This document shows, piece by piece, positions 20,001 to 34,570 of a DNA stretch of 41,127 nt (positions are counted from its first letter, which is position 1; the number at the start of each line of letters is the position of its first letter). The stretch is from positions 1-41,127 of the forward strand of contig JAAEET010000011.1 of NCBI GenBank assembly GCA_013415565.1, in the 5' to 3' direction. Both the position numbers and the translations under genes were made by a program. The DNA is from Methanomicrobiales archaeon. Lineage in GTDB: Archaea; Halobacteriota; Methanomicrobia; Methanomicrobiales; Methanospirillaceae. The notes under the pieces are model-generated. The model did not search any database and had not been told where the DNA came from. It saw only the letters and a list, made by a program, of their open reading frames with translations.

Positions 20001-20011
20001 AATTTATATAG
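20001..20011 (+). promoter_or_regulatory. TATA box of the aromatic amino acid operon
   Basis: AATTTATATAG is a strong TATA match. Its centre at about 20006 predicts transcription start around 20030-20034, exactly where the ATG of a 15-codon reading frame lies. The first structural gene begins 240 bp downstream of the box, so the transcript has an unusually long leader for this genome. Confidence 0.65.
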
Positions 20012-20033
20012 CACCTGATAGAAACTGATACGC

Positions 20034-20081
20034 ATGCAAGGTGAGTGTTTTTTCACCGGTGAGTGTTTTTATCGCTCCTAG
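20034..20081 (+). CDS. Candidate leader peptide rich in Phe and Tyr
   Basis: The frame from ATG 20034 to TAG 20079-20081 reads MQGECFFTGECFYRS. Three Phe and one Tyr fall in two repeats of G-E-C-F-(F/Y), encoded by an 18-bp DNA repeat (GGTGAGTGTTTTT at 20040 and again at 20058). The ATG coincides with the predicted transcription start, so it would be translated as a leaderless message. The downstream operon makes Phe and Tyr. Its role as an attenuation leader is inferred; the frame and repeats are seen directly. Confidence 0.45.
   Translation: MQGECFFTGECFYRS
20040..20070 (+). repeat. Two direct 13-bp repeats, period 18 bp
   Basis: GGTGAGTGTTTTT occurs at 20040-20052 and 20058-20070. The period of exactly six codons keeps the candidate leader peptide in frame. 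GGTGA (20040-20044) can also pair with TCACC (20053-20057), and GTGAG of either copy can pair with CTCAC at 20087-20091, so competing RNA structures are possible. Confidence 0.7.
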
Positions 20082-20109
20082 CCCGGCTCACGCACGTTGC
20101 ATAACGGTT

Positions 20110-20196
20110 CTCCGGAATGCTGTTCCCGGAGCCGTGGCTGGTTCCAGCTGTCATGCTTATTTTGGTTATTTTAGTTATTTTGGCTATTTTGCCTGA
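20110..20196 (+). promoter_or_regulatory. Candidate attenuator: hairpins followed by U-rich tandem repeats
   Basis: CTCCGG (20110-20115) pairs perfectly with CCGGAG (20126-20131). A second small stem, GCTG-GTTC-CAGC, spans 20137-20148. Directly after it, four tandem 9-bp units of TTATTTTGG type (20157-20192) supply four T4 runs, the feature that drives intrinsic termination in archaea. In the frame ending at TGA 20194-20196 the same repeats read [12 protein letters not shown], so they could instead be the control codons of a second leader frame opening at GTG 20134 or further upstream. Which reading is right cannot be told from one sequence. Confidence 0.45.
20157..20192 (+). repeat. Four tandem 9-bp repeats (TTATTTTGG type)
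   Basis: Units are TTATTTTGG, TTATTTTAG, TTATTTTGG and CTATTTTGC, with no gaps. This is the only short tandem repeat seen in the window, and it sits 55 bp before the first gene of the aromatic operon. Confidence 0.85.
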
Positions 20197-20246
20197 TTTC
20201 CGTGAGCACATTCCCTGGAATGCGGCGCATGGAGGAGTGGTGTTGT

Positions 20247-21047
20247 ATGAGAGGAAAAGAAATCCGTCTGGAACGTATCATCGATCGAAACACCCGGAAG
20301 ACGATCATCGTCCCCATGGATCACGGGGTCACGAACGGGCCGATAGCAGGCCTGATCGATCTCGGTGAGGCCGTCGACCGGGTCGCGGAAGGAGGAGCGA
20401 ACGCGGTGCTCGGCCACGTGGGGCTTGCCCTGCACGGGCACCGGAAGAGCGGGAGGGATGTGGGGCTGATCCTGCATCTCTCGGCAAGCACGACAATCGG
20501 GCCGGACCCGAATGAAAAAGTGCTGGTCAATTCGGTGACCAATGCGCTCAAGATGGGTGCCGATGCAGTATCGGTACACATCAACATCGGAGCCGATTCG
20601 GAAGCCCGGATGCTTGCAGACCTCGGGGAGGTGGCGATCGAGTGCATGGAATGGGGCATGCCCCTCCTGGCCATGATGTATCCCCGCGGGAGAAAGATCG
20701 CCAACGAGCATAGTCCCGACCATGTCGCACTTGCGGCCCGGGTTGCCGCCGAGCTCGGTGCCGATATGGTAAAGACCGTGTATACCGGAGATCCCGACAG
20801 CTTCCGGGCCGTGACCCGGGGGTGCCCGGTCCCGGTGGTGGTGGCGGGCGGATCCAAGACCGACGATCGCTCGACCCTGGAGCTGATCGAGGGGGCCATG
20901 TCGGGAGGGGCGACCGGCATCTCCATCGGGAGAAATGCCTTCCAGCACCAGAACCCGGCCCGGTTCATCAGGGCGGCTGCCCTCATCGTGCATGAGGGCA
21001 GGAGCGCAGAAGAGGCATGTGAATTGTTGAAGAGGAATGAACCATGA
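20247..21047 (+). CDS. ADTH synthase (2-amino-3,7-dideoxy-D-threo-hept-6-ulosonate synthase), copy 1
   Basis: This DhnA-type aldolase makes the seven-carbon precursor that replaces DAHP in the archaeal shikimate route. The 266 residues include MDHG (Asp25), MMYPRG (Tyr145) and MVKTVYTGD (Schiff-base Lys176), the catalytic set known from MJ0400. Compared with MJ0400 and copy 2 it lacks the Lys of the HKG motif ([12 protein letters not shown]). The start at 20247 has GGAGG about 12 nt upstream and begins [14 protein letters not shown]; a longer reading from 20202 is less likely. It is the first gene of an eight-gene operon with overlapping ends. Confidence 0.9.
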
Positions 21048-21829
21048 TTGGAAAAGAGATCCGGATAGAGCGAATCATTGACCGGAATACCGGAAGGGCG
21101 GTAATCGTGCCCATGGACCACGGGTTCACCCTCGGCCAGATCGAGGGACTCATGGATATGACCCGGGTGATTTCGGACGTCAGCGAGGGCGGGGCGAACG
21201 CCATCGTCCTCCACAAGGGGATCGTGAAGCGGGGGCACCGGCGAAAGGGGAGGGACATCGGCCTGATCGTCCACCTTTCCGGGAGCACATCGCTCAATCC
21301 AGACCCGAACGATAAGGTTCTGGTCTGCACCGTGGAAGAGGCGGTGGCGCTGGGCGCCGACGGCGTCTCCATCCACATCAACCTCGGGGCACCGAATGAA
21401 TCAAAGATGCTCGAGGATGCCGCAGCCGTGGTGAGGGACTGCAAGAGATGGGGCATGCCCCTCCTGGTTATGATCTACCCGCGGGGAAAGGGGATCGATT
21501 CGTACTCACCCCAGTCGGTGGGGCACTGTGTCCGTGTTGCCGAGGAGCTCGGTGCCGACCTGATCAAGACCAACTACACCGGGGACCCGGTCAGCTTTGC
21601 CCGGATCGTGAAGGCCTGCTCGGTCCCGGTGTTCATCGCCGGTGGGGAAAAGGCGGGAGACCTCGAGACCCTTGCAGCGATCCGCGACTCGGTGAACGCC
21701 GGCGGAGCCGGCGTCTGCGTGGGGAGGAACGCCTTCCAGCGGGAGAATACCACGGCCTTCGTCCGGGCCCTCTGCCATGTCGTCCATGATGGATGGGACC
21801 CTGAACGGGCGCTTTCGGAGCGGTCATGA
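21044..21829 (+). CDS. ADTH synthase, copy 2
   Basis: This tandem paralogue of the preceding gene has 261 residues and starts [20 protein letters not shown]. It has the same catalytic set: Asp25 in MDHG, Tyr145 in MIYPRG and Lys175 in LIKTNYTGD. It retains [12 protein letters not shown], the form found in MJ0400, but its last third is more diverged than copy 1. It overlaps copy 1 and the next gene by four bases each (ATGA). Either both act as isozymes or one has shifted substrate, for example toward fructose-bisphosphate-type aldol chemistry. Confidence 0.88.
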
Positions 21830-22812
21830 AAGAGTTCTGGGTTGATATCCGCCCCTGGAAGAAGGAGCTTGCGACCGCTGCAATCGAGAGCGGAGCCGAC
21901 GTGATCGTTACGGAAGCGGCCGCACCGGTGAAAGCGCTTGGCAGGATGACGGTGGTCTCGGATGACGGGGATCTCATATGGGGGACTGATGTCGTCGAGG
22001 TCACCATAACGGGCACGGAAGGGATGGAAGAGGCGGAGGCCATGGCGAGGAAGGGATACGTGGTGGTGGAGACCGGTGACTGGCGGGTGATCCCCCTTGA
22101 GAACCTGGTCGCTGTCTCTGACCGGATCATCGCCGCGGTGCGATCGGAAGAAGAGGCCGACCTCGCCTTGACGGTGCTCGAGAAGGGAGTTCGTGGAATC
22201 CTCCTGAAGGAGCCGACCCCCGCCCTGATCAGGAAGGTCGGCACACGGGTCAGGGCCGGTACCGGAAGGACCGACCTGGTCCCGTTCACGGTCACCGCAG
22301 TCCGGCCGATCGGGATGGGCGACCGGGTTTGCGTCGATACCTGCTCCATGCTCACGGAAGGCGAGGGAATCCTTGTGGGAAACACTTCATCGGCGCTCCT
22401 GCTCGTCCAGGCAGAGACCCTCGAGAATCCCTACGTCAGTCCCCGGCCCTTCAGAGTGAACGCCGGTGCTGTGCATGCCTATACGCTCGTTCCCGGTGAG
22501 AAGACCGCCTACCTTTCGGATCTCTCTGCCGGGGACCATGTGCTTGCCGTAACACATGACGGTATCCTGCGGGATGCTGGGGTGGGCCGGGTGAAGATCG
22601 AGCAGCGGCCGCTGTTGCTGGTCGAAGCCGAGGCCGACGGCGTGAAGGCGAGCCTGGTGCTCCAGAATGCGGAAACGGTACGCCTGGTCGGGGCCGACGG
22701 GATTCCGATCTCGGTTGTTGCGCTTACCCCGGGCGACCGGGTGCTCGGCAGGGTGCTGCAGGCCGGCCGGCACTTCGGGATCGCCGTGAAGGAATCGATC
22801 ATCGAGAAGTGA
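21826..22812 (+). CDS. 3-dehydroquinate synthase II (archaeal AroB')
   Basis: This enzyme oxidatively deaminates and cyclises ADTH to 3-dehydroquinate, the second step of the archaeal route. The 328 residues begin [20 protein letters not shown] and hold the family blocks TCSMLTEGEGILVGNTSSAL, RPFRVNAGAVHAYTLVPG and YLSDLSAGDHVLAV. It is unrelated to bacterial AroB. Translational coupling to both ADTH synthase genes fits direct handover of ADTH. Confidence 0.96.
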   Translation: MKEFWVDIRPWKKELATAAIESGADVIVTEAAAPVKALGRMTVVSDDGDLIWGTDVVEVTITGTEGMEEAEAMARKGYVVVETGDWRVIPLENLVAVSDRIIAAVRSEEEADLALTVLEKGVRGILLKEPTPALIRKVGTRVRAGTGRTDLVPFTVTAVRPIGMGDRVCVDTCSMLTEGEGILVGNTSSALLLVQAETLENPYVSPRPFRVNAGAVHAYTLVPGEKTAYLSDLSAGDHVLAVTHDGILRDAGVGRVKIEQRPLLLVEAEADGVKASLVLQNAETVRLVGADGIPISVVALTPGDRVLGRVLQAGRHFGIAVKESIIEK

Positions 22813-22816
22813 CAGG

Positions 22817-23641
22817 ATGAAAGTCGGAATAATCGGTGGAACCGGAAAGATGGGACACCTCTTTGCCGGTGTCTTTGAACGGGCGGGGCATGAGGTCCGG
22901 GTGTGCGGGAGAACGACCGTGGTCACCTGCCAGGAACTGGCGCAGGAGTGCGACCTCGTCATGGTCTCCGTACCGATCCGGGACACCGTTGAGGTCATCC
23001 GCCGCATCGCCCCCCTTCTTTCGCCCGGGCAGGTCCTCTGCGACCTCACCTCGCTGAAAGTCGGACCGGTCACGGCCATGCTGGAATCGGCGGCATCGGT
23101 GATCGGGTTTCACCCGATGTTCGGCCCTGGTGTCCCCTCCCTCCGGGGCCAGACCATCGTCGCCACCCCCGTGCGGTGCACCACGGAGACCCTCCATGCG
23201 ATCCTCTCGATCTTTGAATGCGAGGGAGCCGGAATCACCATTTCAACTCCCGAGGAGCATGACCGGGTCATGGCGCTGGTGCAGGGCCTGACCCACAGCG
23301 TCACCCTCCTCGTGGCCGATACCATGCGGCGGCTCGCCATGACCCCGGAAGAGACCGCCCCCTTCATGAGCCCGGTCTACCAGATCGAGATGGGGCTGGT
23401 GGGGCGCCTCCTCTCCCAGGAGCCGGACCTGTACGGGGACATCCTCAGGCTGAACCCGTTCGTGCCGCCAATACTCGCGGCATACGCCCAGTCCCTCGCA
23501 GAGCTCAGGGAGATCGTTGATGCCGGGGATGCCGGGGCGTTCAGCACCCTCTTTGAGAGGAATGCAGCGCATTTCGGATCCTACTGCACCAGGGCGGCTG
23601 CGGAGACCGACTTCCTGATCCGGGCGATGGTGGACCGATGA
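22817..23641 (+). CDS. tyrA: Prephenate dehydrogenase
   Basis: This enzyme oxidises prephenate to 4-hydroxyphenylpyruvate for tyrosine. The 274 residues open with the Rossmann motif VGIIGGTGKMGHLFA. Family motifs are VSVPIRDTVEVI, CDLTSLK, GFHPMFGPG (with the catalytic His in the HPMFGP loop) and LTHSVTLLVADT. The gene has no chorismate mutase or ACT domain. It starts 4 bp after the previous stop and overlaps pheA by four bases. Confidence 0.95.
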   Translation: MKVGIIGGTGKMGHLFAGVFERAGHEVRVCGRTTVVTCQELAQECDLVMVSVPIRDTVEVIRRIAPLLSPGQVLCDLTSLKVGPVTAMLESAASVIGFHPMFGPGVPSLRGQTIVATPVRCTTETLHAILSIFECEGAGITISTPEEHDRVMALVQGLTHSVTLLVADTMRRLAMTPEETAPFMSPVYQIEMGLVGRLLSQEPDLYGDILRLNPFVPPILAAYAQSLAELREIVDAGDAGAFSTLFERNAAHFGSYCTRAAAETDFLIRAMVDR

Positions 23642-24435
23642 CGATCCTGGCGCTCGGTCCCGAGGGCACGTTCTCCCATGAACTCGCAGTCCGGGTCTTT
23701 CCCGGCCCGGTCATGCTGGTCCCCACCATCTCCGGGATTTTCTCCCAGGTCGAAGCCGGCGTCTGCGACGGTATCGTGCCGATCGAGAACAGCGAGGCCG
23801 GCGGGGTTGGCCCGACACTCGACGGGCTGCTGCAGCACGAGGTCTATATTACCGCCGAACTGTTCATGCCGATCCACCACTACCTCGTGTCAAGGGTTCC
23901 CCTGGATGAAATCGCGGTGCTCTATGCCCATCCGCAGACCCATGAACAGTGCAGCAGGTTCATCGATGAGCTGGGAGTGCCGGTGATCCACACCAGCAGC
24001 AATGCCGCAAGCGCCGAGTCAATGGCCGGTTCACCGGCATCGGCCGCCATCGTATCGCGGATGACTGCGGGGCTGCACCATCTGCCTGTCGTCACGGAGC
24101 ATGTGGAGAACAACCCGTCGAACACCACCCGGTTCGTGGTGATCTCGAACCGGCGGGGAGAGGAGCGGGACTGTACCAAGTGCAGCATCCTGGTCGATCC
24201 CGAACAGGACCGGGCCGGTCTTCTCTACGAGCTTCTCGGGATCTTCGCCACCCGGAATATCAACCTGACAAGGATCGAGTCACGCCCTTCAAAGCGGGGG
24301 ATGGGCCGGTACATCTTTTTCATGGATACGGACTACACTCCCGGATGGACCGATGCCCTCCGTGCGCTCCGGGAGAAGGCACGGTTCCGGGAGCTCGGGT
24401 GCTACCGGGAACTGGAGGTGCCCGCATGGACGTGA
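23638..24435 (+). CDS. pheA: Prephenate dehydratase with ACT domain
   Basis: This enzyme converts prephenate to phenylpyruvate for phenylalanine. The 265 residues comprise a catalytic domain beginning LALGPEGTFSHELA with IENSEAGGVGPTLD and the NPSNTTRFVV motif. A C-terminal ACT domain (about 180-260) carries the ESRPSK motif that binds phenylalanine, so feedback inhibition by Phe is expected. No chorismate mutase domain is fused. It overlaps tyrA and aroA, so the Tyr and Phe branch enzymes are encoded before the chorismate-forming enzymes. Confidence 0.96.
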   Translation: MTILALGPEGTFSHELAVRVFPGPVMLVPTISGIFSQVEAGVCDGIVPIENSEAGGVGPTLDGLLQHEVYITAELFMPIHHYLVSRVPLDEIAVLYAHPQTHEQCSRFIDELGVPVIHTSSNAASAESMAGSPASAAIVSRMTAGLHHLPVVTEHVENNPSNTTRFVVISNRRGEERDCTKCSILVDPEQDRAGLLYELLGIFATRNINLTRIESRPSKRGMGRYIFFMDTDYTPGWTDALRALREKARFRELGCYRELEVPAWT

Positions 24436-25691
24436 CCCTCGAAAAGGCGGAAGGAATCGGAATCACGGTCCGGGCTCCCCCGTCCAAGAGCTACACGCAC
24501 CGGGCCCTGATAACGGCGGCACTGGGGGAAGGGACGAGCATCCTTGAGCATCCCCTCGATGCCACCGATACCGCAATCACGGCGGGAGCTCTCGCCCAGC
24601 TCGGAATCCGGATCGATCGCGACGGGGAGAACCTGCGGGTGACTGGGTCGGGCGGGGCCCTGGACTGCCCCGGGAATACCGAACTCGGGATGGGGGATTC
24701 GGGGACCAGTTTCCGCCTCCTCACCTCGGTAGCACTCCTCTGCCGGAACCCCGTCGTCCTGACCGGGAGCGCCCGTATGAGAGAACGCCCGGTGGGAGGG
24801 CTGGTTACGGCCCTGAACGCGATCGGGGGGAGGATCCGGTACCTGGGATCTCCGGGATTCCCCCCGATCCTCATCGACGGTGAGCTCGCGGGAGGGACGG
24901 TCAGCGTCGAGAGCAGCGTCAGCAGCCAGTTTGCATCATCCCTCCTCCTTGCCGCTCCCTGTGCCCGGTCTGTCGTGGAAGTAGAAATCCCTCCCGGAGC
25001 CGTCTCACTGGCCTACCTCGACGTGACGGCAGATGTCATGGCATCGTTCGGGGTGAAGGTTCAGCGGGACGGCTACCGACGGTTCCAGGTCATCCCGGCC
25101 CGGTACCGGGCACGGACCTACCGGATCGAGGGTGACTATTCATCGGCCTCGTACTTCTTTGCCATGGCTGCCGCATGCGGGGGAAGGGCAACGGTGGAAA
25201 ACCTGGTCCCGGCATCGGTCCAGGGAGACCGGTGTCTGCTGGAAGCGCTGGCGGAGATGGGCTGCCGGGTAGGGTCCTCCGGTGATGCCGTCACGGTGGA
25301 AAGCGACGGCCGGCTCGAGGGAATCGAGCGGGACATGTCCGCCTCGCCCGATATCGTCCAGACGCTCTGCATGGTTGCGGCGCGGGCCGTCTCTCCCTCC
25401 CGGTTTACCGGGATCTCCCACCTGCAGTTCAAGGAAAGCGACCGTATCCGCGCAGTCCTCGGGATTATCCGGACCCTCGGCGGCGATGCGACCTGTGAGC
25501 AGGATGCCATCATCATCCGGCCGGCACATCTTCACGGCGGGATTGTTGATGCCGGAAATGATCACCGCACCGCGATGAGTGCGGCAGTGCTCGGTCTCGC
25601 GGTGGGGGGCGTCACCATCACGGGTGCGGAGTGCGTCAGCAAGTCTTTTCCGGATTTCTGGAAAATACTCCATGAGGTCGGACTGGTATGA
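24426..25691 (+). CDS. aroA: 3-phosphoshikimate 1-carboxyvinyltransferase (EPSP synthase)
   Basis: EPSP synthase joins PEP to shikimate 3-phosphate. The 421 residues show SKSYTHRALI with Lys21, MGDSGTSFRLL, RMRERPVGGLVTAL, ESSVSSQFASSLLLAAP, HLQFKESDRI and NDHRTAMSAAVLGLA, all blocks of the active site. The glycine-loop reads GDSGTSFRLL rather than the NAGTAMRPL of enterobacterial enzymes, as in divergent archaeal and class II-like forms. The ATG at 24426 overlaps pheA by 10 bp and fits the family N-terminus. Confidence 0.96.
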   Translation: MDVTLEKAEGIGITVRAPPSKSYTHRALITAALGEGTSILEHPLDATDTAITAGALAQLGIRIDRDGENLRVTGSGGALDCPGNTELGMGDSGTSFRLLTSVALLCRNPVVLTGSARMRERPVGGLVTALNAIGGRIRYLGSPGFPPILIDGELAGGTVSVESSVSSQFASSLLLAAPCARSVVEVEIPPGAVSLAYLDVTADVMASFGVKVQRDGYRRFQVIPARYRARTYRIEGDYSSASYFFAMAAACGGRATVENLVPASVQGDRCLLEALAEMGCRVGSSGDAVTVESDGRLEGIERDMSASPDIVQTLCMVAARAVSPSRFTGISHLQFKESDRIRAVLGIIRTLGGDATCEQDAIIIRPAHLHGGIVDAGNDHRTAMSAAVLGLAVGGVTITGAECVSKSFPDFWKILHEVGLV

Positions 25692-27067
25692 GGATCGTAC
25701 TGTGCGGGTTCCGGGGGACAGGGAAGACCGAGTGCGGCATTCTGCTGTCCCGGCTCATCAGTCTCCCATTTTTCGATACCGATGCGCTGATCGAGGAGCA
25801 GGCCGGGAAAACCATCCACGAGATATTTTCCGGGGAGGGGGAGGAGATCTTCCGGGACTACGAGCGGCAGGTCATTGCCACCCTTCCCGGAACGGGCTGC
25901 ATTATCGGGACCGGCGGTGGAGCGGTGATCGATCCCCGGAATGTGGAAGCGCTCCGACGGGGAAGCACGATGATTCTCCTCGAAGCCGAACCTGCAGCCA
26001 TCGAACAGCGGATCCGGGACACCACCCGGCCGCCGCTCACCACCCTCCCCCTCCGGGATGAAATCCGTCTCCTGCTGAAGGAGCGGAAGCCGTTCTATAC
26101 CCGTGCCGCCGATTTTTGTATCGATACGACCACCCGGAGCCCGAACGAGGTCTGCCTTGCCATACTGAGGATCCTCGCTGAGGGCACAGCCTCACCGGGT
26201 GCCGGGGCCCGGGCGGTCCGGTTCCTGGAGGCGTCCGGGATTCCGGAAAACGAGATCCGGGCCTTTGAGCAGGCAGCGGTAGGGGGGGATCCGAAGACGC
26301 GGCTGTTTGCCATCGCCGGGAACCCGTCAGTCCACAGCCGGAGCCCGGCACTCTTCTCCCGGCTCTTCGCCCACTACGGCCTGAACTGCCACTATACCCG
26401 CCTGCAGGCCCCCGATATTGTTCCGATACTCCGCCTCTGCCATGACCTCGATTTCCGGGCACTCTCGGTGACCATCCCCTTCAAGAGCAGCATCATGGAG
26501 CACCTGTCGGGCATCGAACCCGACGCCGGGGAGATCGGGGCGGTCAATACCGTGGTATGGTGCGGGGGAAGGAGTTACGGGTCCAATACGGACTGGATCG
26601 GCATCCGCGACGCTCTCACCGATGCCCGGGGATCGAAGGCGGTCGTGCTGGGTGCCGGCGGCGCCGCGGCAGCGGCGGTCTACGCGCTCAAAGCGCTCTC
26701 CATGGAAATCACCGTCCTCAACCGGACGGTCAGCACCGCGGAGGATCTTGCCGGGAGGTTCGGCTGCGAATCCGGACCCCCGGAAGCATTCGACCGGGCC
26801 GATCCCGACATCGTTATCAATGCCACTCCGGTCGGGATGGAGCCGGACACGCACAGCCCGCTGAAGAAGTCCCAGCTGAAACCGTCCATGACCGTCTTTG
26901 ACCTGGTCTACACCCCAGCCGAGACGCCGCTTCTCAGGCTCGCACGGACTGCCGGATGCAGGGTGATCCCCGGTACGGAGATGTTTGTCCGGCAGGCTGC
27001 CACGCAGTTCCGCCACTTTACCGGAATTTCAGCACCTCTTGACCTGGTGAGGAGCATGATGCCATGA
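25688..27067 (+). CDS. Fused shikimate kinase (P-loop type) and shikimate dehydrogenase
   Basis: One 459-residue chain catalyses two successive steps. Residues 1-165 are an AroK/AroL-type shikimate kinase: GFRGTGKT (7-14), [16 protein letters not shown], a GTGGG substrate loop (74-78) and the LID arginine in TRPPL. Residues about 205-459 are Aro[11 protein letters not shown], catalytic Lys266 in VTIPFK, Asp302 in SNTDWIG, NADP loop [15 protein letters not shown] and INATPVGM. The linker shows no decay, and no stop or frameshift is seen. Archaea usually use an unrelated GHMP shikimate kinase, so the kinase half may be of bacterial origin. Confidence 0.94.
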
Positions 27068-28062
27068 ACACGTTCGGAAAATCGTTCAGATGTACGACGT
27101 TCGGTGAGAGCCACGGTCCTGCGCTGGGCGTGGTCATCGACGGATGTCCACCGGGACTCTCTCTTTCGGAGAATGATATCCAGCCGGCACTCGACCGCCG
27201 GAGACCGGGCCGTGACCCCCTCACATCGCCGCGGGCCGAGCCCGACCGGGTAGAGATCCTCTCGGGGGTCTTCGAGGGCAGAACCACCGGGACGCCGATC
27301 GCGCTGATCATCCGGAACCGCGAGGCGAGGTCGTCCGATTATGACGAGCTCCGCGATGTCTATCGCCCTGGCCATGCCGATTACACCTACCAGATGAAGT
27401 ATGGGATCCGCGATCACCGGGGCGGGGGCCGGTCGTCGGGCCGGGAGACGGCTGCCCGGGTTGCAGCCGGGGCGGTCGCCGCCCGGATCCTCTCGGAAGC
27501 CGGGATTACCGTCGAAGGAACCATCGAGGAGATCCACGGAGTGAGCGATCCCACGGGACGTGAGGAGGAGATTCGCAGGGCCATGGCGGAAGGGGATTCT
27601 GTCGGCGGGATCATCCGGATCACGGCCCGCGGCGGTCCACCCGGCCTCGGCGACCCGGTGTTCGGCAAGCTCGATGCCCGGATCGCCGGGGCACTGATGA
27701 GCATCGGCGGGGTGAAAGGGGTCGAGATCGGGGACGGGTTCGCAGCCGCCCGGATGAAGGGAAGCGAGCACAACGACCAGATGGACAGCACCGGGTTCCT
27801 TTCCAACCACGCCGGGGGGATTCTCGGCGGCATCAGTTCCGGGGCAGATATCGTGGTCAGGGTGGGGGTGAAGCCGACCTCATCCATCAGAAAACCCCAG
27901 AAAACCCTGACGAGGGATGGCGAGGAGACGGTGGTGCGGATCGGGGGCCGGCACGATCCCTGCATCGTCCCCCGGGTGCTGCCGGTTGCGGAGGCGATGC
28001 TCTGCCTGGTCCTGGCAGATGCCCTGATCGAGCAGCAGAAGTACCGGCTATTTCAGGGTTGA
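27064..28062 (+). CDS. aroC: Chorismate synthase
   Basis: This FMN-dependent enzyme makes chorismate from EPSP. The 332 residues carry the signatures [33 protein letters not shown] and [21 protein letters not shown], plus [10 protein letters not shown] and [17 protein letters not shown] near the C-terminus. It overlaps the preceding fusion gene by four bases and closes the aromatic operon. At 332 residues it is slightly shorter than bacterial AroC (about 360), as is common in archaea. Confidence 0.97.
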
Positions 28063-34219: not shown

Positions 34220-34568
34220 AGAAGCGAGTGGGAGGAGTAAGCCCCCTTCTGTTCGGTGCGGCATTCAGCTTGGCGCCATACCCGGGTAGTCGTGCCTGAG
34301 CAGCCACAATACCCTGTTCTGGCTTGCACCCGCAGGGATTCGCCGTTTCATCGCATCCTGCCCGTCGGCTCAGCGGGTTATCTTGTGCGTTGCCGCACGT
34401 CTCGCCCGTGAGGGCTCGGCCGTATCATCGCTCGGGGCAGGCCGTGTCGTTTCTGTGCCAGTGCCGTGACTCTCGCCACCCATACTTGCGTATGGCTGCG
34501 TGCCCAGGTGGTGGGGGGACTTTCCTCAGCGGCCGGTCTCCCGGCCACCGTCAGCCGCACTCTCCCTC
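34220..34568 (-). ncRNA. rnpB: RNase P RNA
   Basis: This is the catalytic RNA that trims tRNA 5' ends. The two universally conserved core blocks are on the minus strand: GAGGAAAGTCC (34527-34517, 5' half of P4) and AGAAGGGGGCTTA (34250-34238, 3' half of P4). The ends can pair as P1: GAGAGTG near 34564-34558 with CACTCGC at 34230-34224, with one mismatch. A minus-strand TATA-like CTAAATATG (34592-34600) gives a start near 34570. The ends are estimated to about 10 nt. Size and P4 core fit an archaeal type A RNA. Confidence 0.93.
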
Positions 34569-34570
34569 TC

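Follow-up and report, generated by a model that had tools for sequence, protein, structure and literature searches.

A Phe/Tyr-sensing leader-peptide attenuator, entered by +1 ribosomal frameshifting, probably governs the shikimate/Phe/Tyr operon found in the window (the whole 41,127-nucleotide stretch of DNA that was analysed). The parts of this reading are not equally strong. It seems almost certain that a conserved leader rich in Phe and Tyr codons is under selection to be read, and it is very likely that the long frame of this leader is read by a +1 frameshift from a short upstream frame, ORF1. Regulation of the operon by Phe/Tyr supply through the leader has, in our view, an equally good claim. 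Translation, frameshifting, dependence on starvation and the output step are what we infer from sequence. The features concerned are as follows.

20003..20010, plus strand: TATA-like promoter element TTTATATA, its first base 31 nt upstream of the ORF1 ATG
20034..20081, plus strand: ORF1, MQGECFFTGECFYRS and a stop, with an 18-nt repeat; ATG 20034-20036, stop TAG 20079-20081 (zero frame)
20040..20044, plus strand: SD-like GGTGA, 5' of the Phe slip site
20049..20054, plus strand: Phe slip site TTT TTC (YUU-UUY), in 87/87 loci
20058..20062, plus strand: SD-like GGTGA, 5' of the Tyr slip site
20067..20072, plus strand: Tyr slip site TTT TAT (YUU-UAY), in 87/87 loci
20068-20070, plus strand: predicted slip target TTT of the Tyr site, the following codon being ATC from 20071
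20071..20196, plus strand: long frame of the leader (+1 relative to ORF1), with a predicted 53-aa trans-frame peptide
20110..20131, plus strand: perfect 6-bp stem CTCCGG/CCGGAG, partly kept in the genus
20137..20148, plus strand: small stem GCTGG/CCAGC
20158..20196, plus strand: Phe/Tyr run of 12 aa with four U4 runs; stop TGA 20194-20196
20198..20234, plus strand: hairpin past the leader stop, arms 20198-20204 and 20228-20234, the 3' arm overlapping the Shine-Dalgarno (SD) sequence
20231..20237, plus strand: SD sequence GGAGGAG of the first aro gene
20247..21047, plus strand: operon gene 1, 2-amino-3,7-dideoxy-D-threo-hept-6-ulosonate synthase (TIGR01949, above cut-off)
21044..28062, plus strand: remaining operon genes, by family matches

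The first-pass annotation had placed an aromatic amino acid operon with tyrA and pheA here, and both enzymes are indeed encoded: genes 2 to 5 specify a second ADH synthase, 3-dehydroquinate synthase II, prephenate dehydrogenase and prephenate dehydratase (the last two being good family matches with scores below the curated cut-offs), and genes 6 to 8 are aroA, a shikimate kinase-dehydrogenase and aroC. The two tandem ADH synthase paralogues that open the operon (20247-21829) are 53% identical and both exceed the TIGR01949 cut-off. When the whole window was scanned against Rfam, the leader had no match at the gathering threshold (T-box, riboswitch or Rfam attenuators), the sole match being an RNase P RNA of archaeal type on the minus strand (34226-34570).

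Relatives were sampled by fetching 130 loci with operon gene 1 as the query: 30 came from 60 genomes in which it had a match, 80 were the best of 527 from genomes of named species, and 20 were taken from across the phylum. Once identical or too short upstream sequences were dropped, 113 loci were classified, 105 of Methanomicrobiales type and eight from other orders (L123-L130). The original proposal of a leader peptide with Phe/Tyr codons before the aro operon is strongly supported: a leader is present in 102 of the 105 distinct Methanomicrobiales-type loci, 87 with two frames and 15 with one. The remaining three are L110, the one locus of the 105 with no leader; L049, left unclassified because its ORF1 and open frame lead to a poor aromatic end (4 F/Y/W of 14); and L011, dropped since its contig stops within the leader. 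L128 was also unclassified, and L106, with just 12 bases of upstream sequence, was dropped. The position of the leader before an aro gene is no independent argument, as the loci were fetched by that gene.

Some of these classes were defined by the features discussed below. The 87 two-frame loci were selected on condition that they show the frame relation and the aromatic end; where indicated, an unconditioned set of 88 distinct loci (79 initial and nine later) was used, chosen by the ORF1 pattern alone. The one-frame filter asked for no more than an ATG in frame and 4 or more F/Y/W in 14 codons, and yielded 14 loci, to which L107 was added by eye after failing the aromatic filter; two of the one-frame loci, L101 and L105, have weak aromatic runs (5). 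The tree has 101 rows (L084 omitted as short, L107 included as one-frame), and in it the closest relatives of the window are Methanoregulaceae records. Two records, L042 and L110, are labelled bacterial (Bacteroidales and 'bacterium') yet carry the archaeal gene, L042 with a full archaeal leader; mis-binning or mislabelling is the probable cause.

The Phe/Tyr run of the window lies in the +1 frame, begins 76 nt beyond the ORF1 stop and reads TAT TTT GGT TAT TTT AGT TAT TTT GGC TAT TTT GCC TGA. The four T4 runs that had been pointed out are there (starting at 20160, 20169, 20178 and 20187), but it had gone unnoticed that they are codons of this reading frame. In the window, eight of the last 14 codons of the leader frame are F/Y, where base shuffles give 3.8 (p 0.0015). 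The 101 loci average 6.8 F/Y and their shuffles 2.5, with p<0.05 in 95/101, and the other two frames hold 1.4 and 2.3 of 14. The leader stop was picked for aromatic content in these counts, so that a fairer test is one in which the identical choice is applied everywhere. When each stretch is scored by its most F/Y-rich open frame of 25 codons or more, and at least 5 of 14 is required, 96/101 leaders pass, against 3/101 antisense strands of the same stretches, 1/194 blocks of the window and 0/29 stretches upstream of the gene elsewhere (the eight other-order loci, L110 and 20 further stretches, L131-L150, one of which, L140, is the first 700 bases of a contig and serves as filler). The chance T-richness that the first-pass annotation had held up as an alternative source of Phe codons thus falls short of the run, which stands above shuffles, antisense strands and upstream controls. 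No leader was seen in other orders, in either the eight loci or the 20 further stretches. With the length condition removed, L141, L147 and L143 reach 7, 6 and 5 F/Y of 14 among those 20, short F/Y-rich frames occurring in some AT-rich stretches of this set.

The frame that carries this run is kept open from ORF1 onwards. In the unconditioned set, the +1 frame is open from ORF1 to the aromatic-rich end in 88/88 loci, is 37-98 codons long, ends 32-124 nt upstream of the first aro gene and has at least 4 F/Y/W in its last 14 codons in 88/88 loci (at least 5 in 85/88). Between the ORF1 stop and the leader stop of the 87 two-frame loci there are no stops in 3274 codons of the +1 frame, as against 152/3274 in the zero frame and 111/3187 in the third. 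Dinucleotide shuffles of this stretch, taken over 25 loci that each represent a cluster at 70% identity, put the probability of an uninterrupted +1 frame at 10^-17. In 46/87 loci the +1 frame has no ATG, GTG or TTG on its way from ORF1 to the run, and must therefore be entered within ORF1; 59/87 loci have no ATG at any point of the long frame. The middle of the leader shows no amino acid conservation in any frame (substitutions by codon position), and among 20 pairs of close relatives it has 82 non-silent against 41 silent single changes. As its amino acids vary freely, it seems to be the act of translating the leader, and not the peptide, that is under selection.

ORF1 itself, the Phe/Tyr short frame that was to be looked for in relatives, is conserved across the Methanomicrobiales and reads M(Q/R/C)GECFFAGECFY.. 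and variants. Its 18-nt repeat is present in two or three copies, and the in-frame indels that had been suggested as a check are found as in-frame insertions of this repeat in some genera. The TATA box and the ATG opening a Phe/Tyr frame had both been described correctly for the window, and each of the 87 two-frame loci was scored by its best match to TTTATATA: this is 8/8 in 26, 7/8 in 42, 6/8 in 14 and 5/8 in five, and in the 82 loci scoring at least 6 the distance from this match to the ATG is 29-36 nt. ORF1 is probably leaderless or nearly so. Palindrome-like elements (e.g. GGCTATGCTATATCTTAGCC) were noticed by eye near the promoter of some relatives, between the TATA box and the leader ATG in L115, L095 and L112 and upstream in L026-L058; they are possibly an operator for an additional transcription factor.

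Two slip-like sites, YUU-UUY and YUU-UAY, are both present within ORF1 in 87/87 two-frame loci. The P-site codon of these sites is never UUC or CUC, against 73 UUC and 51 CUC elsewhere in ORF1; in the window operon (seven of eight genes) UUU makes up 17/61 Phe codons and CUU 24/189 Leu codons. Once shifted by +1, a tRNA bound to UUU or CUU is able to pair again, with the overlapping UUU. The A-site codon is a sense codon, UAY or UUY, at both sites in these loci, and the Tyr codon of the Tyr site varies between TAT and TAC alone (67:20), a change that is silent in the zero frame and non-silent in the +1 frame. The SD-like element ahead of the Tyr site is GGTGA in 43 loci, CGTGA in 32 and something else in 12, and the 3' end of GGTGA/CGTGA lies 4 nt upstream of the Tyr-site P codon in 75/87. 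Among six genomes searched, a 16S 3' end GGATCACCTCC (UCACC, pairing with GGTGA) was detected in five and was not found in the MAG of the window itself. Given its single Phe and Tyr slip-like sites followed by a stop, ORF1 is probably not the main control peptide that it was at first taken to be.

The main rival to frameshifting is a start inside ORF1, because a +1-frame GTG lies there in 87/87 loci (and an ATG in 13/87): ORF1 would be a decoy or a separate frame, the long frame would begin at this GTG or ATG (GGTGAGTG), and the whole would be a classical attenuator. We consider this unlikely. It is the ORF1 ATG that stands where a start is expected relative to the TATA box; an internal start does not require the fixed zero-frame Phe and Tyr codons or the ORF1 stop, yet these are kept in 87/87 loci; and no start codon lies 5-9 nt downstream of either GGTGA of the window to be served by it. 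The one-frame relatives also argue against it. In place of the two-frame layout they have a single leader, started by an ATG and ending in a Phe/Tyr run (in Methanospirillum, Methanomicrobium, Methanogenium and others), and in the best candidates this ATG stands 29-37 nt past a more or less TATA-like match. Among culturable relatives, Methanospirillum hungatei has the one-frame leader, Methanoculleus and Methanocalculus the two-frame one. In alignments, which speak for frameshifting, L095 and L028 are one base shorter at the Tyr slip run than their near relatives L115/L091, and L107 is one base shorter at the first slip run than its sister L102. The layout has changed at least six times on the tree (101 rows), three of these changes being forced by well supported branches.

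Under the frameshifting reading, transcription would start at or just upstream of the ORF1 ATG. With ample Phe- and Tyr-tRNA, a ribosome would read ORF1 in the zero frame and exit at its stop. If it had to wait for Phe- or Tyr-tRNA at UUU-UUC or UUU-UAU, its P-site tRNA would move from (U/C)UU onto the UUU that overlaps it, a step aided by the SD-like GUGA a little way upstream, and the ribosome would proceed in the +1 frame into the Phe/Tyr run adjoining the operon. There it may cover U4 runs otherwise bound by the archaeal terminator aCPSF1/FttA, and/or open a hairpin over the ribosome-binding site of the first gene, the operon being expressed in either case. A shortage of either Phe or Tyr would thus send ribosomes into the second Phe/Tyr run and turn the operon on. 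That such starvation-induced ('hungry') +1 frameshifting is the primary sensor, with Phe-tRNA tested at one site and Tyr-tRNA at the other, is a step that we favour by a modest degree.

Both outputs are candidates and may differ among clades. At least two U4 runs occur within the Phe/Tyr run in 73/101 loci (four in the window); the minimal aCPSF1 site consists of two such tracts (PMC8716108), and FttA is likely to cause polarity in archaea according to PMC12548453. The count of U4 runs matches codon choice, 2.0 being observed and 2.06 expected from silent shuffling, with no excess beyond the preference for TTT and TAT. On the structural side, the strongest case is that of a hairpin covering the ribosome-binding site of operon gene 1, and Methanospirillum shows it most clearly. 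Many loci can be folded into a post-leader hairpin overlapping or abutting the SD sequence, with a median SD pairing of 0.59 across 101 loci. This hairpin is modestly stable (a mean z of -1.4, z < -1 in 56%), and in the window it is no more stable than shuffles (z -0.65). Consensus folds keep six pairs with no double changes in the Methanoculleus set, and four pairs with two double changes in the Methanoregula set. In six Methanospirillum sequences the end of the leader pairs with a segment alternatively able to pair with the SD sequence, giving two mutually exclusive helices in which 96% and 98% of pairs are kept with two double changes each; among 500 column shuffles, 31 and 11 reach as many double changes for the respective helix, and no excess of pair types is seen. 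Signs of such alternative structures are weak in the genus of the window and in other clades. Masking of the 5' side of the RNA frees the SD sequence in some clades, a result that does not fix the direction of control.

The model put forward in the first-pass annotation had ORF1 as the control peptide, the stems of 20110-20148 as antiterminator and terminator, and the U-rich tract as an intrinsic terminator. Both stems are exactly as it described them (CTCCGG/CCGGAG, perfect over 6 bp at 20110-20131, and GCTGG/CCAGC at 20137-20148), the stem-loop immediately 5' of the U-rich tract has a terminator-like score, and ORF1 is conserved together with its Phe and Tyr codons. The conserved hairpins looked for in relatives are found only in part, the two stems being partly kept within the genus (eight sequences) and less so in L009. 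Further, F/Y codons are enriched in one frame only, a pattern not expected of a plain U-tract, and the linking +1 frame is open throughout the ORF1-pattern set. Of the classical attenuator layout the Phe/Tyr leader stands, and a classical hairpin-plus-U-tract terminator is hypothetical; the model as a whole now appears very unlikely.

Two further explanations are more improbable still. The GTGAGTGTTTTT repeats, tandem 18-nt units in two or three copies right at the predicted transcription start, could be the DNA binding sites of a repressor, with the reading frames as by-products, but this leaves unexplained the open frame of 37-98 codons with its aromatic run and the restriction of Tyr-codon variation to TAT/TAC, and some one-frame relatives without repeats keep the run. 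Nor is the leader at all likely to be a small functional protein (e.g. of the membrane) with an aromatic tail: its reading frame is short, conserved and hydrophobic at its end, but its middle is unconserved in both sequence and length.

Similar leaders were sought at other loci. No His leader was seen at 10 hisG loci, fetched from eight genomes out of 14 matches; in five of the 10 a frame reaches 3 or more His of 14, but always at least 254 nt upstream and, judging by the sequence, inside the neighbouring gene. At 8/8 trpE loci every upstream frame had fewer than 3 Trp of 14. The trpE start of Methanomicrobiales is often ATGCC-NNNN-GA(A/C)TGG (8/8 loci), with a like mini-ORF in 22/30 further loci (the wrong frame being picked in a few rows). 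This mini-ORF, MPx(D/E)W, overlaps the trpE start in a different frame, its UGG lying on the apparent ATG/CTG start of trpE (loci L151-L158 and L169-L198, including L157:796 on contig C17 of the window's own genome); in L157, L158 and L186 there is no in-frame ATG, GTG or TTG ahead of the conserved TrpE N-terminus. A second slip cassette was searched for as a pattern over 41 genomes, one that misses some true loci (e.g. that of G022). It gave 28 matches in 19 genomes: 15 at the aro locus by coordinates, three unchecked and 10 elsewhere, four of the latter in G042, about 950 bases from 16S ends. As a reversed control pattern gave 22 matches, the 10 off-locus matches look like chance and were rejected.

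Attenuation by leader peptides is a textbook form of bacterial regulation, with pheL-pheA, trpL and hisL as its amino acid operons. As in these, a short leader frame rich in codons for the end products precedes a biosynthetic operon; here, by contrast, the leader is archaeal, with a nearly leaderless start and a two-frame layout that would need a +1 shift, and any terminator of bacterial type in it is hypothetical. Frameshifting has been described at pheL, where it is seemingly incidental (PMC5009743). No recognisable archaeal leader-peptide attenuator was met in the literature searched, which consisted of open-licence papers available in part; a study of small proteins in Methanosarcina mazei raises possible uORFs in general (PMC11456600). 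If the reading is true, this leader would, as far as literature searches show, be the first attenuator of leader-peptide type in Archaea, and its +1 frameshift the first with a regulatory role in a cellular gene of that domain. It would be a two-stage, frameshift-gated attenuator coupling translation to operon expression via amino acid supply, with frameshifting as the sensor, and the natural one-frame relatives would offer ready-made comparisons.

Recoding by archaeal ribosomes has been reported as -1 frameshifting in fucA1 and as apparent +1 frameshifting in the virus HSTV-2 (PMC8211752). The full-length relatives of fucA1 have one base less in the slip run; these cases differ from the present one in being a -1 shift in an enzyme gene, or a viral gene, and not regulatory leaders. 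The same review, of 2021, gives one -1 case, a suggested frameshift in a methanogen magnesium chelatase and virus cases, and in its section 7 names no +1 case in an archaeal cellular gene. The sites of aCPSF1/FttA termination (PMC8716108) resemble the leader in their minimal form of two U4 tracts; they differ in that the U runs are codons of a leader frame here, where termination is hypothetical.

Two bacterial systems come closer. In the autoregulatory +1 frameshifting of prfB (PMC5009743), the shift site is CUU_U, or UUU_U in a minority of species, and there is also an SD stimulator. The archaeal leader shares with it the short zero-frame ORF, the CUU_U/UUU_U site, the SD-like element upstream, the slow A-site codon and a remainder in the +1 frame. 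The A-site codon is UGA in prfB and a sense Phe or Tyr codon here, and the product is a regulatory leader as opposed to an enzyme or factor; with no stop codon in the A site, the leader works like the prfB entry but is not a member of the RF2 system. The closest logic among known systems is that of the ermC leader, in which frameshifting is induced by telithromycin (PMC5009743). There the signal is an antibiotic and the host bacterial, where the proposed archaeal signal is amino acid shortage; in ermC, as is proposed here, shifted ribosomes enter the spacer, open mRNA structure and permit initiation at the next gene.
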